Assembly (NCBI GenBank): GCA_902618975.1
Contig: CACNCN010000003.1
Coordinates: forward strand, 1 to 64,000
DNA length: 64,000 nt
DNA from: an uncultured Pelagibacteraceae bacterium
Lineage (GTDB): Bacteria; Pseudomonadota; Alphaproteobacteria; Pelagibacterales; Pelagibacteraceae
Direction of reading: 5' to 3'
In this document: positions 47,364-60,968 of the stretch, piece after piece
Layout of the letters: each line of letters starts with the position of its first letter
Numbering within the stretch: position 1 is the stretch's first letter
Program-made: the position numbers and the translations under genes
The notes under the pieces: model-generated
The model's input: the letters and a program-made list of their open reading frames with translations, nothing else
Database searches by the model: none
What the model was told of the DNA's origin: nothing

Positions 47364-48212
47364 CTAAAAATTTGTTTTGATCACTGTTATAAGTCTGTTT
47401 AATTGATCAAGGTCCATATACTCAAAAGATAATTTTCCAGTATTATTTTTTTTATTTGTAATGCTTACATTTATACCTGTTTTTTCTTTAACAGAATTTT
47501 CTAAACTAATAATGTTTGCATCTTTTTTGTCGTTTGAGTATTTTTTAATATTTTTAAAAGAACGAATTAGGCTCTCTGTTTGTCTTACAGAAAGTCTTTT
47601 TTGTAGAATTTTCTTTGCTAAATAAGAACCATTTTGTAAGCCAACAAGTATTTTTGCGTGGCCATGGCTAATTTTATTTTCTTTGATTAAATCTAAAATA
47701 TCTTCGCTTAATGATAATAATCTTAATGTATTGGTAACATGTGATCTACTTTTTCCAATAAATCTAGAAACTTTTTCTTGATCATATCCAAATTTCTCAA
47801 TTAAATTTTTATAACTCTCAGCTTCTTCTATCGGATTTAAGTCTTTTCTTTGAACATTTTCTATAATTGCTAGTTCTAGTGATTTTAAATCATCAGCGGA
47901 AATAACAACAACTGGCACCTCATGAAGTCCGGCAGTTTGAGCAGCTTGTAACCTTCTCTCCCCTGCTATTAATTCATATTTATTGTTCTCTATTTCTGAT
48001 TTTCTAACTATTAAGGGTTGGATTATTCCTCTCTCTTTTATAGAGTTTGTTAGATCCTCCAAAGCTTCTTTTTCAAAAGATTTTCTAGGCTGATTTTTAT
48101 TTGGAACAATCGAGCTAATAGAAATATTATTATTAGATTTGATGTTATTATCCCCTATTAATGAAGATAAACCCCTGCCAAGACCTTTTTTGTTTTTAAA
48201 AGGGTTCATCAA
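47364..48212 (-). CDS. parB: chromosome partitioning protein ParB
   Basis: GLGRGLSSLIGD, ELIAGERRLQAAQTAG, IENVQRKDLNPIEEA. Confidence 0.98.
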   Translation of the reverse strand: MMNPFKNKKGLGRGLSSLIGDNNIKSNNNISISSIVPNKNQPRKSFEKEALEDLTNSIKERGIIQPLIVRKSEIENNKYELIAGERRLQAAQTAGLHEVPVVVISADDLKSLELAIIENVQRKDLNPIEEAESYKNLIEKFGYDQEKVSRFIGKSRSHVTNTLRLLSLSEDILDLIKENKISHGHAKILVGLQNGSYLAKKILQKRLSVRQTESLIRSFKNIKKYSNDKKDANIISLENSVKEKTGINVSITNKKNNTGKLSFEYMDLDQLNRLITVIKTNF

Positions 48213-49012
48213 GCTGCACTCTCCTTTTTCTCCAAGTCTTGTTGCAAAAATTCATCCGCAAAGCTAAAGTATGCTTTACTACCAGGGCAGTTTTTGTCAT
48301 AAATAAGTACAGGAATTCCGTGTGATGGAGCCTCCGACAATCTCACATTTCTTGGTACTGCTATATTGTAAACTTTATTCTTAAAATAATTTCTAGCTTC
48401 TAATTCAACCTGGCTAGATAGCTTGTTTCGCTTGTCATACATTGTTAAAAGTATTCCTCTGATTTCTAAAGATGGATTTAAATTTGATTTTATCCTATCT
48501 ATTGTTTTCATTAATTGCGTTAAGCCTTCTAAAGCAAAAAATTCCGTCTGAAGAGGCACAATCAAAGCATCAGAGGCAACTAGTGCCATTATAGTTAGTA
48601 AACTAAGAGATGGTGGACAGTCGATTAATATATAATCATATGATAAGCTTGAATCATTTAAAATAGAGGTTAATTCATCCTTTAATTTAAATGCTCTGCG
48701 GCTGTCACCTGCTGTCTCAACTTCCAGACCAGATAAATCAACATTTGAAGTAATTAAATTTAGGTTTTCAAATGAAGTGGTCTTGATAACCTCAGATATT
48801 TTTTTCTCTCCATTCAGAACACTATAAATAGTTTGATCTGAGTCGGCTGTATTAGATAGACCAAGACCGGTCGTTGCATTTCCCTGTGGGTCAAGATCAA
48901 TAACTAATATTTTTTTTCCTTTCATAGCAAGACCTGCAGCAAGATTAATTACCGTTGTAGTTTTACCAACACCACCTTTTTGGTTTATTATCGAAATTAT
49001 TTTTTTATCCAT
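48209..49012 (-). CDS. parA: chromosome partitioning ATPase ParA
   Basis: NQKGGVGKTTTVINLAAGLA, LDPQGNATTGLG. Confidence 0.98.
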   Translation of the reverse strand: MDKKIISIINQKGGVGKTTTVINLAAGLAMKGKKILVIDLDPQGNATTGLGLSNTADSDQTIYSVLNGEKKISEVIKTTSFENLNLITSNVDLSGLEVETAGDSRRAFKLKDELTSILNDSSLSYDYILIDCPPSLSLLTIMALVASDALIVPLQTEFFALEGLTQLMKTIDRIKSNLNPSLEIRGILLTMYDKRNKLSSQVELEARNYFKNKVYNIAVPRNVRLSEAPSHGIPVLIYDKNCPGSKAYFSFADEFLQQDLEKKESAA

Positions 49013-49649
49013 TCTTTTTTTTTAAATTATAAATTTTGACAATCATTGACTCTTCGTTGGTTATGCTTTTTTTTTGCTCATAATCAAAGTTCCAAATTTT
49101 AAGTGCATCCTTTAAAATTTTTTTTCCACTCTTTCCTAAAAATAAAATAATGTATTTAAAATTTACAAAATTCTTGAAAGCGATTTCGAAAATGATTGGT
49201 AATGGCTTAAATGCACGAGATATTATTACATCTGTTTTTAAATTTGTTTCATTAAAAATATTTTTTTTACATATTTTTGAGTTTAATTTATATTTTTGTG
49301 CCATCTCCTTTATAAAGTTGCTTTTATGGTAGCTTTTTTCATAAAAAATCGTCTTAAATACTGGTTTTTTTGGCTTCATCAGAATTCCTAAAACTACACC
49401 TGGCAATCCTGCGCCTGAACCAATATCAGTACAAATTTTTATATCATTTTTATCAATAAAATCAATTGTTTGTGCGCTATCTACTATATGTCTAAAACTT
49501 ATCTCTTTTTCCGAACTTTTGCTTATTAAGTTAAATTCCTTATTTCTATCAAGTATATCGTTTTTATATTCTTCTAACTCCTCCATTGTTTCACGTGAAA
49601 CATTCATTGGAAAGTTATTATTAATTTTTAAAATATTCGAATCAATCAA
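49005..49649 (-). CDS. rsmG: 16S rRNA m7G527 methyltransferase
   Basis: [26 protein letters not shown]; between parA and mnmG. Confidence 0.96.
49587..49602. promoter_or_regulatory. parS centromere-like site
   Basis: TGTTTCACGTGAAACA, perfect 16-bp palindrome identical to the chromosomal parS consensus. Confidence 0.93.
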
Positions 49650-52972: not shown

Positions 52973-54517
52973 TTAATTTTGACTTAATATTTTAAATAGT
53001 TTTTTTAAGCTATCTTTATAATATTTACTTTTATTAATAGAAGAGACATACAAGTCTTTTCTGGCTTGAAATGAACTTAAAGTTTTGATTGGGGATTTGT
53101 TATTTTTGTGATTTAAACAGGCATAATCCATATCTTCATCACAAAAATTAATTAATTTTTTGATCTCATTTTTTTTATCTTTTATAATATTCTCGTAATT
53201 TAACTCATAAATATTATTTCCTATTTTACTCTTCCAAAAATTCATTAAATCGCTATAAATTTTGATAAAGGATGCTATTTCCTCTTCGGTAAAGGACCAG
53301 CCTAAGTGATTAGCTTCAAACATATTTTTATAAATAGACAAAGATGTGTCATAAATATTCCGTGTGCAATGTATTATTTTCGAATTTGGAAAAAAAATCT
53401 TGATAAAACCTAACCATATAAAATTAAGTGGGGCTTTATCTATTATTACATTTTTTTGTAATTTATAATTAGAGATAATATTAAAATACTCCTCATTAAT
53501 TTTACTTTCTTTCAACAAATTTGAAAATAACTTTTTGTTAATTTCGTTTTTTGTAACAATATTTTCAAAAATTAATTTACGAATGTAAATCAATTCCCCC
53601 AAACCTTGAATGTTTTTATGTGATGATAAAATTTGCTCTGCTAATGAAGTTCCGGATCTTGGCAAACCAACAATAAAAATAATTTTTATTTCATGTTTAG
53701 ACTTCGAAAATTTATTAAACTTAAAATTTTCAAAACATTTTTTAATACTTGAAAAGAGTTTTTTATCTTTTGAAATATTGTATTCTAAATCTGATCTTTT
53801 AAGCATGTTTCCTTTTTGACAATAATCAAAAGACTTTTTGTAATCTCCTAAATCATCAAAACCTTTGCTTAAAGAAAAATATAAGTCAGCTTTTTGCCAG
53901 TTCTCTAGAGACCCATATTCTAAAAGTTTTTTAATTCTAGGAATAAGATTATTATCAGTTTTATAACTAATCATTGAGCTGATCAATCTATAAACACCAG
54001 TCAATTTAGGATTAATTTTCAAAATTTTATCAGTCACTTTCAAAGATTTACTTTTTTCACCCAAGTGTTGATAGCAGGTTGCTAGACCAAAAAGAGATCC
54101 AACATGATTAGGTTTATATTCTAAGGATTTTTGAAAAAATTTAATACTATTACTATAATCATTTAATATCTGTTTCAGTAATGCATAATTATACCAACAT
54201 TTTTGGTAATCACTTTTTTCAGCTAAAACTTCTAAATAAAGTTTCTCTGCCAAATGATATTTGAAAAGATTTTTGTAAGAGTTTGCTAAATTATACTTAG
54301 TATATATTAGATGAGAATCTATTTCTAAAGCTTTTTTAAAATAAAATATTGACTGTTTATAATCTCCAAGTTTTTGAAGTATCAAACCATAGAGATTGTA
54401 TGGATAACTTTTGTCTGGGTATTTTACTAGTATTTCTTTGCAAGCTTTTTTAGACTCTATAAAATTTTTTTTTTTAAACTCTAAATTTACAATCTCTAAA
54501 TCTTTTTGATATTCCAT
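52973..54517 (-). CDS. TPR-repeat sulfotransferase
   Basis: N-terminal TPRs; GLPRSGTSLAEQILSSH (5'-PSB) and IIHCTRNIYDTSLSIYKN (3'-PB). Confidence 0.88.
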   Translation of the reverse strand: MEYQKDLEIVNLEFKKKNFIESKKACKEILVKYPDKSYPYNLYGLILQKLGDYKQSIFYFKKALEIDSHLIYTKYNLANSYKNLFKYHLAEKLYLEVLAEKSDYQKCWYNYALLKQILNDYSNSIKFFQKSLEYKPNHVGSLFGLATCYQHLGEKSKSLKVTDKILKINPKLTGVYRLISSMISYKTDNNLIPRIKKLLEYGSLENWQKADLYFSLSKGFDDLGDYKKSFDYCQKGNMLKRSDLEYNISKDKKLFSSIKKCFENFKFNKFSKSKHEIKIIFIVGLPRSGTSLAEQILSSHKNIQGLGELIYIRKLIFENIVTKNEINKKLFSNLLKESKINEEYFNIISNYKLQKNVIIDKAPLNFIWLGFIKIFFPNSKIIHCTRNIYDTSLSIYKNMFEANHLGWSFTEEEIASFIKIYSDLMNFWKSKIGNNIYELNYENIIKDKKNEIKKLINFCDEDMDYACLNHKNNKSPIKTLSSFQARKDLYVSSINKSKYYKDSLKKLFKILSQN

Positions 54518-54531
54518 AGAAATTAAAATTT

Positions 54532-56091
54532 TTAATTATCTAAAAGACTAAACATATCATTCAGATTTTTTTCATAAAATTGATTTTTATTAATTGAGGA
54601 AGAATATATGGGTTTTCTAGCTTGAGTTACACTTACCGTTTTGATTGCGGTTTTTTTTGATCGATGATGATTTAAGCATTGTTGATCGAATTTTAGACCA
54701 CAAAAATCTAATAATTTTGTTATTTGCTCTTCTTTATTATTAACTAACTCCTCATAATTTAAATCATAGATATCATTAGGCATTTTGCTTTTCCAAAATT
54801 TGATAATTTTTTTATACAAATTGTAGTTTTTTGCGATGTCTGTTTCTGAATAAGTCCAATCTAGATCTGATGATGCAAAACTATTTTTATATAAGGAAGT
54901 ACAAATATCCTTTGCATTTCTATTACAATGAATAATCTTTGAGCCCGGAAAAAATATTTTAATAAACCCTAGCCATTTAAAATTTTGTGGTGCTTTATCA
55001 ACAATTATATCTTTCTCTATTTTATGAAATTTAAGCCAATTATAATAATCATCTGCCAATTTAGATCTAGCGCTATAAACATCTTCTTGTAAAAGTTTTT
55101 TATTTAAAAGGTCGTTTTCAAATTGATTATCCTTAATTGATTTTTGCAAATAAATTAATTCTCCCTGACCTTCTACTTCATTATGAGATGATAGAATTTG
55201 TTCTACTAAAGTTGTTCCTGACCTTGGCATGCCACAAACAAAAATTATTTTTTTAATACCTTTATTATTTATTAATTTAGTAAAATCTACTTCATCAAAA
55301 GCATTTATTAAACTATCTATTAAATTCTCTTCCTTTTTAATATCATAATTGACAGCTTTTTTTTTTAAATCGTTTGCAATTTTCAAGTATTTAAAAGACT
55401 CGTCATATTTAGAAATATCTTCATATGCCTTAGCTAAAGCAAATGAAATGTCAATTTTTTGTTCATTTGATAAGTCTTGTGACTTGGAAATCTCTTTCAT
55501 ATTCTCTAAATGTGAATTATTTTCAGCTTTATTATAATCATATATGCTACTTAATAATTTATGTGCTGACATAATATTATTATTTAACTTTAGTATTTTC
55601 TGTATTGTATTTTCTGCCAGTTTGAAATTCCCTACTGCATGATAACAGGCCGCAAGGCTCATTAAAATCATAAAGTTATTTTCATCACTTTTTAGAGCTT
55701 CCTCGTAAAGATTTATTGCTGCATCGTAATCATTTATCAGCTGTTTAAAATTACCGTAATTATTGAGACATTTTACATATTTTGGATCTATGGATAATGC
55801 CTCTTTATAAAGCTTTTCACATAATTCAAATTTACCTATTATTTTAAATGAATTTGCTAAATTATTTCTTGCAAAAATATTATTTGGTTCTAGAGAAATT
55901 GATTTTTCAAAGTAAGGTATTGCAGCTTGTATTCTTTTGTGTTGTTGAAGCGCTAGCCCACACAAGTTATATAAATATGAATTTTGTGGAAATTTTTTAA
56001 TAAGAATGTTGCATTGCGATATGGCTTTTTCATAATCTTTTTTTTTTAAGTTATAGTGGATTTTTTCTATTTCTTTTAATAATTCCATCAA
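54532..56091 (-). CDS. TPR-repeat sulfotransferase, paralogue of the adjacent gene
   Basis: N-terminal TPRs; GMPRSGTTLVEQILSSH and IIHCNRNAKDICTSLYKN. Confidence 0.88.
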   Translation of the reverse strand: MMELLKEIEKIHYNLKKKDYEKAISQCNILIKKFPQNSYLYNLCGLALQQHKRIQAAIPYFEKSISLEPNNIFARNNLANSFKIIGKFELCEKLYKEALSIDPKYVKCLNNYGNFKQLINDYDAAINLYEEALKSDENNFMILMSLAACYHAVGNFKLAENTIQKILKLNNNIMSAHKLLSSIYDYNKAENNSHLENMKEISKSQDLSNEQKIDISFALAKAYEDISKYDESFKYLKIANDLKKKAVNYDIKKEENLIDSLINAFDEVDFTKLINNKGIKKIIFVCGMPRSGTTLVEQILSSHNEVEGQGELIYLQKSIKDNQFENDLLNKKLLQEDVYSARSKLADDYYNWLKFHKIEKDIIVDKAPQNFKWLGFIKIFFPGSKIIHCNRNAKDICTSLYKNSFASSDLDWTYSETDIAKNYNLYKKIIKFWKSKMPNDIYDLNYEELVNNKEEQITKLLDFCGLKFDQQCLNHHRSKKTAIKTVSVTQARKPIYSSSINKNQFYEKNLNDMFSLLDN

Positions 56092-57877: not shown

Positions 57878-58873
57878 CTAAACGTATCTATTCACTAAAT
57901 GTGAAAATAAATCAATATGTTCCTCACTATCATTTAGACAAGGGATAAAATCGAAATTTTCTCCCCCTGCCTCCATAAAGCTTTTCTTTCCCTCTATTGA
58001 TATTTCCTCAAGTGTTTCAACACAATCCGAAGCAAAACCAGGGCATATTAAGAGTATATTTTTTTTGCCTTCTTTGGGTAATTTCTCCAGTGTTTTATCA
58101 GTGTAGGGTTGTAACCATTCTTGGGGACCAAACCTAGATTGAAAGGTAGTCATTATCGGTATGCTCGACTTGATTTTTTCAGTTATTAGCCTAGTAGTTT
58201 TGTGACAATAGCAATGATAAGGGTCGCCTTTCTCAAAATATTTTTTAGGAATTCCGTGGTATGAAGCCATGATTATATCTGGTTTCCAATTTATCTGACT
58301 AATTTTAGTTTCAATAGATTTACTAATTGCGTTTATATAAAGAGGTTCAGATTCATAATGAGGTATAATTTGTAGACTAGGCTGCCATCTCATTTTAATT
58401 AAAGATCTATAAACTTCGTCACAAACGGTAGCTGTCGTTGCGGCCGCGTACTGTGGATACAAAGGTAAGATAACTAGGTTTTCACAACCTTTTTCTTTTA
58501 GATCTTTAATTTTACTTTTTATGCTTGGTTGACCATATCTCATAGCGTAATCAACAATTAATTTATCATTGCCAATTTTTTTGTTTAATTTAAGAGATTG
58601 AACTTGTGTATAATATCTTAAGGGAGACATGTTTTTATCTCTCATCCATATTTTCTTATAAGCTTTCGCTGTTTTAGATGGTCTAAAAGTTAAAATAATT
58701 AAATTGAGAATTATTTTCCATAAAATTGGGTTGACTTCAATAACTCTTCTGTCTGATAAAAATTCTTTTAAATATCTTCTTATATCCAACCATTTAGTAG
58801 AGTCCGGAGTACCTAAATTTATTAATAACACACCAGTTTTGCCAAATTTTATTTTTGGGTGTTTTTTGTTCAT
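57878..58873 (-). CDS. hemH: ferrochelatase
   Basis: GVLLINLGTPDS, YPQYAAATTATV, SYHGIPKKYFEKGDPYHCYC. Confidence 0.97.
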   Translation of the reverse strand: MNKKHPKIKFGKTGVLLINLGTPDSTKWLDIRRYLKEFLSDRRVIEVNPILWKIILNLIILTFRPSKTAKAYKKIWMRDKNMSPLRYYTQVQSLKLNKKIGNDKLIVDYAMRYGQPSIKSKIKDLKEKGCENLVILPLYPQYAAATTATVCDEVYRSLIKMRWQPSLQIIPHYESEPLYINAISKSIETKISQINWKPDIIMASYHGIPKKYFEKGDPYHCYCHKTTRLITEKIKSSIPIMTTFQSRFGPQEWLQPYTDKTLEKLPKEGKKNILLICPGFASDCVETLEEISIEGKKSFMEAGGENFDFIPCLNDSEEHIDLFSHLVNRYV

Positions 58874-59874
58874 TGATTATCTCTTACAACTTTAACAAGT
58901 TTATCTACCATTTTTGGCTCTGTCTCTGGCAGAACTCCGTGACCTAAATTGAAGATGTATGGTTTATTTTTAAACACATTTAAAATCTCTTTTGTTTCTT
59001 TAATTAAGGTCTCTGAATTTGATAACAGTATTTTGGGATCTAAGCCACCCTGGATGGGTATTTCAACTTCTTCCGCTATTTTCCTTATGTTTACATTATA
59101 ATCTATACTGATTACATCTGGACTTACAGTTTTTACATATTTTGGATAGTCTTTTATTTCTCTCGGAAAACAAATAGCAGGTATTTTTAGACCTTGTGTA
59201 AATTGGACCACTTTTTTAGTTGGTTCGTAAATATATTTTTCTACATCTTTGTCTTTTACTAATCCTGCCCAGCTATCAAATATTTGTATTATAGTTGCAC
59301 CGCTTTTTACTTGTTCCTCTATATGTATTTTAATGTATTCGATTATTAGTTCTAATAAATTATCGATTTTTGATTTATCTAATAAAAAATTTTCAATTGA
59401 TGTTTTTTTGGGTGATTTCCGATTTAACATATATACTAGAAGTGTCCATGGTGCTCCCACAAAACCGATTAAAGATTTTTTTTTTCCTTTTAACTGATTG
59501 GATAAAGAGCTCATTGAATCATAAACAGGCTTAAGTTTTTTTTTGAATAACTCTTTTTCAATATTAGAACTTTCAAAATAATTAAATTCACCTAGTATTG
59601 GTCCATAATTTTTTTTAAACTCTACTCTTTGATTTAATCCATATGGAATCATTAATATATCGGAAAAAATAATAGCAGCATCGAAATCAAATCTTTTTAA
59701 AGGCTGTAATGTTATTTCTGGTACAAGCTTTGTATTTAAACATAGCTCAATGAAATTTTGGTTTTTAGACCTAATTTCTCGGAATTCAGGGAGATATCTT
59801 CCTGCCTGTCTCATTAACCAAATAGGTTTCACGTTTTTATCTTTGTTTATTATAACCTTATTTAAAGAGTCCAT
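58870..59874 (-). CDS. hemE: uroporphyrinogen decarboxylase
   Basis: PIWLMRQAGRYLPEFRE, FSDILMIPYGL, GFVGAPWTLLVY. Confidence 0.98.
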   Translation of the reverse strand: MDSLNKVIINKDKNVKPIWLMRQAGRYLPEFREIRSKNQNFIELCLNTKLVPEITLQPLKRFDFDAAIIFSDILMIPYGLNQRVEFKKNYGPILGEFNYFESSNIEKELFKKKLKPVYDSMSSLSNQLKGKKKSLIGFVGAPWTLLVYMLNRKSPKKTSIENFLLDKSKIDNLLELIIEYIKIHIEEQVKSGATIIQIFDSWAGLVKDKDVEKYIYEPTKKVVQFTQGLKIPAICFPREIKDYPKYVKTVSPDVISIDYNVNIRKIAEEVEIPIQGGLDPKILLSNSETLIKETKEILNVFKNKPYIFNLGHGVLPETEPKMVDKLVKVVRDNQ

Positions 59875-60143
59875 ATTATTTATATTATTTGTTTTATAGC
59901 CTGTGAATTAAGTTAATTATTTTATTCTAACAATTTATAAATATTTTATACATATCTAAATTGTCTTAAAATTATGAAAAATGGCTGATTTATAGCTTTA
60001 TAATTTTTTTTGTCACAGAATGTATAATAATTTTAGCCCTGTTTAATATTGTGCATTATTCCTTAGTTTTTAATTAATTTTTATATTTTAAATACAAGGT
60101 TATATTTTGACTTAATTAGTTCAAAATTTTATACATTTTATAC
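59875..60143. other. candidate chromosomal replication origin (oriC)
   Basis: 269-bp AT-rich gap between divergent hemE and ppsR; four TTATACAT motifs (59946-59954 +, 60019-60027 -, 60129-60137 +, 60138-60146 +); hemE-adjacent origin is known in Caulobacter and Rickettsia. Confidence 0.65.
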
Positions 60144-60968
60144 ATGAAAAATACATATGAAATATACCTAATTTCGGATTCCACAGGAGAAACAATTGAT
60201 AGAATATTTATTGCCTTAAAATCTCAATTTCCAGATTTCAAATATAACATTAATAATTTTTCCTTTACTAGAACACAAAATCAAATCAAAGAAATTTTAA
60301 AAAACATAAAAAATTTCGAAAATACAATTATATTATATACACTTGTAGACAAAGATATGTCAGAGTTTTTATTAAAGGAAGCTAAAAGATATAAAATACC
60401 ATGTTTTGGCGTTCTAGGCGAATTAATATCAAATTTCTCTATGCTTCTAAAACAAAAGTCATTAAACATTCCAAGTAGACAACATAAGTTAAACGATGAA
60501 TACTACGATAGAGTCGAGGCAATTCAGTTCACAATTAGACACGACGATGGAAACGAAACTGATGATATTGAAGATTCTGATATAATAATTTTGGGGGTAA
60601 GCAGAACTAGCAAAACACCAACATCAATATATCTTGCCAATAGAGGATACAAAACCTCTAATATTCCTTTGATTAATGAAAAATCAATACCAGAAAAAAT
60701 AAAAATGAATAAGAAAAAACTTTGTATTGTAGGCCTGACAACAGATCCTGAAAGACTGATCGACTTAAGGAAAAATCGAATGAGGTCACTTAAAGAGAGA
60801 GAGAACACTAATTACACTAATATAAAAATGATTTCAGCTGAAGTTAAGCTTGCCAGAAAAACATTTAAAAAATTTAATTGGCCCGTCATCGATGTTACAA
60901 GAAAATCAGTAGAAGAAACAGCAGCGGCAATTATAAAAATACATGAAATAATGAATAAAGATGGATAA
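60144..60968 (+). CDS. ppsR: pyruvate phosphate dikinase/PEP synthase regulatory protein (DUF299)
   Basis: YLISDSTGETIDRI, ILGVSRTSKTPTSIYLANRGYK. Confidence 0.93.
   Translation: MKNTYEIYLISDSTGETIDRIFIALKSQFPDFKYNINNFSFTRTQNQIKEILKNIKNFENTIILYTLVDKDMSEFLLKEAKRYKIPCFGVLGELISNFSMLLKQKSLNIPSRQHKLNDEYYDRVEAIQFTIRHDDGNETDDIEDSDIIILGVSRTSKTPTSIYLANRGYKTSNIPLINEKSIPEKIKMNKKKLCIVGLTTDPERLIDLRKNRMRSLKERENTNYTNIKMISAEVKLARKTFKKFNWPVIDVTRKSVEETAAAIIKIHEIMNKDG

Follow-up and report, generated by a model that had tools for sequence, protein, structure and literature searches.

The chromosomal origins of Caulobacter crescentus (Cori) and Rickettsia prowazekii (oriC) are bounded by the same two genes, hemE and a COG1806/DUF299 gene (i.e., ppsR), and consist of an AT-rich gap with several DnaA-box-like sites (PMC1914354). 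In Bacillus subtilis and many other bacteria, the basal unwinding system (BUS) consists of a DnaA box, a short spacer at which the CACA end of the box points, and a series of xAx triplets (PMC8287927). A stretch of 64,000 nucleotides from an uncultured SAR11 bacterium, hereafter the window, contains a gap between the same two genes, likewise AT-rich and with several box-like sites, and a box with the same orientation towards a spacer and triplets. From comparative sequence analysis, this hemE–ppsR gap is very probably the chromosomal oriC of this bacterium and the positional homologue of Cori. The support for this assignment comes from conserved synteny, gap size, AT-richness, the box-like sites, the module on the hemE side, and the agreement of skew and parS in a relative. 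The repeats from which a sequence-only reading had proposed an origin here account for only a small share of the features that mark it.

Few groups of ocean bacteria match SAR11 in abundance, and estimates of replication rates from ocean metagenomes hinge on the location of the SAR11 origin. A recent study aligned SAR11 genomes at dnaA (PMC12421898), a gene that lies about 62 kb from the gap in the complete relative G012. A full-text literature search of incomplete coverage returned no published description of a SAR11 origin and no published trios at hemE-type origins.

The gap and its box-like sites across SAR11

The contig that carries the window, C3, belongs to a 29-contig draft genome (867 kb, 70% complete). 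The named relatives nearest to it belong to the Pelagibacteraceae (SAR11). Its features are collected in Table 1. The genes from 47.4 to 63.7 kb lie first on the minus and then on the plus strand, as the sequence-only reading had described, and every element named in that reading was located in the sequence. The gap has a GC content of 16.7% vs. about 25–35% elsewhere along the window, and its AT content is thus above average.

Table 1. Features of the putative origin and its surroundings, in window coordinates
Feature	Position	Strand	Remarks
parB and parA, for chromosome partition, in the origin domain	47364-49012	-	gene calls, profile search
perfect parS TGTTTCACGTGAAACA inside rsmG	49587-49602		10.3 kb from the gap
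hemE (uroporphyrinogen decarboxylase), bounding the putative origin on the left	58870-59874	-	TIGR01464 above cut-off
putative oriC, hemE–ppsR intergenic region, 269 bp, 16.7% GC	59875-60143		size and synteny kept in 104 other SAR11 genomes
degenerate DnaA-trio array, 3'->5' from box 1: TAT TTT GTT TAT TAT; presumed unwinding start	59883-59897	+	(T/G)AT x5 in phase in relatives
4-nt spacer AGCC between trios and box 1	59898-59901		4-nt spacer conserved in relatives
candidate DnaA box 1, TAATTCACA, 1 mismatch to TTATTCACA	59902-59910	-	CACA end faces the trios; aligns with TGTGAATAA of relatives
tandem box array position 1, degenerate TTATTCTAACA	59922-59932	+	aligned with TTATTAACA-type sites of relatives
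tandem box array position 2, degenerate TTATAAATA	59935-59943	+	alignment, matrix scan
tandem box array position 3, TTATACATA	59946-59954	+	TTATACAT or TTATTAACA there in relatives
TTATACATT, weak DnaA site or TATAAT promoter element (plus strand)	60019-60027	-	same-place copies in few relatives
near-consensus DnaA box TAATGCACA	60050-60058	-	aligned with TGTTAATAA of relatives
TTATACATT, first copy of the tandem pair next to ppsR	60129-60137	+	TTATTAACA or TTATAAACA nearby in relatives
TTATACATG over the ppsR start codon	60138-60146	+	TTATACATG in 50/104, TTATTCATG in 20/104 relatives
ppsR (DUF299/COG1806), right boundary gene	60144-60968	+	NF003742 above cut-off; ATG at 60144

The gap was compared with those of 29 relatives and then of 75 further SAR11 loci. 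In all 104 of these other SAR11 gaps first compared, the order hemE (minus), gap, ppsR (plus) is kept, with a gap size of about 261–306 bp and a GC content of 12–21%, and hemE stands upstream of the gap in every SAR11 relative examined. At least one DnaA-box-like site, mostly TTATNAACA or TTATNCACA, is present in 103 of the 104 gaps. The family box class can be written as TTATNMACA (M = A or C), which occurs 84 times in the gaps of the 29 relatives against 5.9 expected, and TTATNCACA occurs there 23 times against 1.2 expected. The places of the boxes also align among relatives, i.e., one adjacent to hemE, a tandem array in steps of about 11 bp, two in the centre, and two where ppsR begins.

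The window gap is at the degenerate end of this family. No exact TTATNMACA is found in it, and on the matrix of the relatives, which is narrow and was built from exact TTATNMACA matches, it scores no better than its own shuffles, whereas the relatives have at least three matrix sites each at the lowest threshold. Clusters of consensus-type boxes are seen in the relatives as a set and in G012, while the window has only one-mismatch or TTATACAT sites. The six closest relatives sampled (72–78% ppsR identity) are intermediate, with zero to one TTATNMACA each. The top-scoring site in the window gap is box 1, TAATTCACA, a variant common to several relatives. It aligns with the most constant box of the relatives, reading TGTGAATTA in the window and usually TGTGAATAA in the relatives (TTATTCACA on the hemE strand). 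The distance from box 1 to the hemE start is 27 nt in the window and usually 37–46 nt in relatives. This box and its adjoining triplets were absent from the sequence-only reading. At the other end of the gap, 70 of 104 SAR11 genomes have an element TTAT(A/T)C across the start codon of ppsR.

The box, spacer and triplets beside hemE

The layout beside hemE consists of the conserved box and, on its hemE side, a 4-nt spacer and then about five in-phase triplets. In relatives, five (T/G)AT triplets follow the 4-nt spacer when read 3′ to 5′ from the box. Among 26 non-redundant relatives, the frequency of adenine is 0.69 at the middle position of the trios vs. 0.17 and 0.09 in the other phases, a contrast that 5000 phase-shifted sets never reached. 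Two thirds of the non-redundant relatives have a run of three or more xAx trios at spacer 4. In the window, the longest run is two and the phase is preserved: every A of the stretch falls in the trio-middle phase, and three of the five triplets keep it. TAATTCACA, a DnaA box with no more than two mismatches, stands 4 nt from the array, i.e., within 16 nt of the trios. Judging by this arrangement, the box, spacer and triplets probably constitute a DnaA-box plus DnaA-trio unwinding module (BUS), for which an opening activity is predicted.

Similar triplets are also found outside SAR11. Clean trios (CTACTACTACTA on the hemE strand) adjoin hemE in some members of the sister family f2 and in one Rhodospirillales genome. 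Ten of 30 diverse alphaproteobacterial hemE genes have a triplet score with p <= 0.05 in the 130 bp upstream, and several others look alike by eye only. These hemE-side trios suggest that the alphaproteobacterial hemE origins share one unwinding module.

The likely course of initiation can be pictured from the family as follows. DnaA would occupy box 1 together with the weaker sites in tandem, ATP-DnaA would form a filament reaching from box 1 along the trio strand, and the AT-rich duplex would melt beside hemE, where helicases would be loaded and bidirectional replication would begin. The TTATACAT copies at box positions may act as weak accessory DnaA sites. The start-codon element makes a link between DnaA binding and ppsR expression possible, in that the copy located there may tie ppsR expression to DnaA occupancy.

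Position of the gap in the genome

Since the window genome is a draft, the skew and density tests were run on G012, a complete SAR11 relative of 1,343,202 bp. No other 300 bp of that genome are as dense in TTATNMACA as its gap, and no other 300-bp stretch has two TTATNCACA. The cumulative GC skew is V-shaped, with a maximum at 616 kb and a minimum at 1,291 kb, and the raw skew minimum lies 29 kb from the gap. A fit of the origin to third-codon-position skew corrected for gene orientation gave a bootstrap 95% interval of 1.230–1.310 Mb (80 kb wide). The gap (1.262 Mb) falls within this interval, and dnaA (1.199 Mb) lies outside it. The sequence-only reading had named GC skew as its check, with an inflection elsewhere, for example beside dnaA, as the opposing outcome; in this relative, the interval spans the hemE–ppsR gap. 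In a further relative, G250, the first 800 kb show a skew maximum at 159 kb (the antipode of the gap being at 191 kb) and a minimum at 668 kb, with the gap at 910 kb, beyond that part.

A single parS-like site (at most two mismatches) is present in G012, at C1 1254719, 7.2 kb from the gap. It lies inside rsmG beside parAB, and the perfect copy in the window lies in the same gene. Two adjacent TPR-plus-sulfotransferase-like genes stand between mnmE and rho at 52973–56091 in the window; their best match in G012 is far off, at 43–44 kb, while mnmE and rho are near neighbours there.

Searches of the 29-contig draft (70% complete) for DnaA and DnaN gave no match. The empty DnaA search is explained by a cut in the assembly, because contig C21 begins within the 5′ end of dnaA, beside rpsT and mutM, and a loss of dnaA from the window genome was therefore rejected. 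On that side, the neighbours of dnaA are rpsT and mutM, not hemE.

The repeat, alternative readings and described origins

The sequence-only reading rested on four copies of TTATACAT, on direct repeats of TTTATAGC (59893–59900 and 59989–59996) and on a one-mismatch box (TAATGCACA, minus strand), all of which are present. The two TTTATAGC repeats were rejected as functional elements, being present in only 2 of 30 genomes and thus not conserved. The whole window has six copies of TTATACAT, vs. 5.7 in shuffles, and four of the six fall within the 272 bp of the gap, where shuffles have a mean of 0.10 and never more than two in 5000. However, some 8-mer is present at least four times in 28% of shuffled gaps and this one was picked after the fact, so the fourfold occurrence alone is weak evidence. 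Its conservation is likewise partial: the gap and its boxes are conserved in related gaps, whereas the only widely conserved copy of TTATACAT is the one over the ppsR start, TTATAC followed by ATG (50/104). Among the closest relatives (72–78% ppsR identity), TTATACAT is found in zero to three copies, mostly zero or one. One of them, L248 (72% ppsR identity), has three copies and no TTATNMACA, and most close relatives are without the fourfold repeat. The proposed chromosomal origin in a hemE-flanked gap finds strong support in synteny, boxes, trios, genome-wide density, skew and parS, while the accompanying proposal that TTATACAT is the diverged DnaA box of this lineage is weakly supported.

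The gap could also be read as no more than the promoters of two divergent genes, hemE and ppsR, with its low GC, the TATA-like repeats and the start-codon element as promoter signals and the origin elsewhere, e.g., near dnaA. The two genes do diverge from the gap, the copy at 60020–60027 reads TATAAT on the plus strand, and the published SAR11 alignments start at dnaA (PMC12421898). However, sigma-70-like sites were fewer than in shuffles in a promoter scan, promoters leave the 3-nt periodicity, the genome-wide maximum of DnaA boxes and the proximity of parS unexplained, and dnaA falls outside the skew interval, and we regard this reading as highly improbable. A narrower objection concerns the triplets beside box 1, which might arise as a by-product, either from AT-rich sequence or from an N-terminal hemE extension, and not be DnaA-trios. 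The window copy is degenerate, its conserved phase falling below the published minimum of three consecutive xAx, and many single sequences are non-significant alone; yet the phase contrast of the 26 non-redundant relatives is unmatched among the phase-shifted sets, and outgroups have cleaner trios at the corresponding position. The period-3 signal was rejected as an extension of the hemE coding sequence, since 79 of 88 cases have in-frame stops between box 1 and hemE. A by-product origin of the triplets is quite improbable.

The remaining alternative accepts the origin and holds that the window lineage has a changed DnaA specificity, with TTATACAT as its true DnaA box. The counts in the gaps favor it, since the window has no TTATNMACA and four TTATACAT, vs. 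at least one TTATNMACA and at most two TTATACAT in 103 of the 104 relatives, and L248 resembles the window in both respects. So does a change in the DnaA recognition region: in domain IV, the SAR11 genus has (S/A)NRDHTT vs. the signature GGRDHTT, i.e., (S/A)N replaces GG directly before RDHTT, and VRPRQ vs. ARPRQ, i.e., V replaces A before RPRQ, while the sister family f2 retains GG and A (dnaA loci L048–L061, L263–L274). A changed box specificity is possible on these substitutions. However, RPRQ and RDHTT, among which are the residues that contact bases in E. coli DnaA (structure 1J1V, the best match), are invariant in the DnaA of relatives, and the GG change is genus-wide and also found in genomes with canonical boxes. 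Relatives at 75–78% ppsR identity have zero to one TTATACAT and one TTATNMACA each, TAATTCACA, not TTATACAT, still ranks first among the boxes of the window, and the DNA-binding domain of the window's own DnaA falls outside the draft assembly. In our view TTATACAT is an improbable candidate for the true box. A related proposal, which we consider unlikely, is that the origin of this sub-lineage has lost all consensus DnaA boxes and functions with TTATACAT-type and one-mismatch sites; its DnaA specificity would then have shifted, or it would rely on the single module of box and trios by hemE.

With the gap read as oriC, several differences from the described systems can be stated. At about 270 bp, the gap is shorter than those of Caulobacter and Rickettsia (more than 400 bp), and its boxes are of the class TTATNMACA, which is degenerate in the window. 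Unlike those two origins, the window gap has no CtrA site of the form TTAA-N7-TTAA, and Pelagibacter is reported to be without ctrA (PMC2877005), so control by CtrA is unlikely. GANTC is also absent from the window gap and below expectation across relatives, and control through CtrA and GANTC was rejected. CtrA sites are absent from one Wolbachia origin too (PMC1914354), which, together with the reported absence of ctrA in Pelagibacter, indicates that they are inessential to the hemE-type class of oriC.

The Wolbachia, Ehrlichia and Anaplasma origins (COG1253-hemE) share the hemE boundary and several box-like sites, but there the COG1806 gene has moved off and a CBS-domain gene stands instead, while SAR11 keeps ppsR (PMC1914354). 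In the sister family f2 (L034–L045), none of the genomes searched yielded a ppsR, and opposite the trios at hemE, on the other side of the gap, stands what reads as a maf-like gene; the f2 origin has apparently retained hemE and had its other neighbour replaced. Compared with BUS, the first base of the trios is often T rather than G here, one strong box stands by the trios, and the window has A in only three of five triplets. Both the hemE–COG1806 origin (PMC1914354) and the unwinding module (PMC8287927) are of already known kinds.
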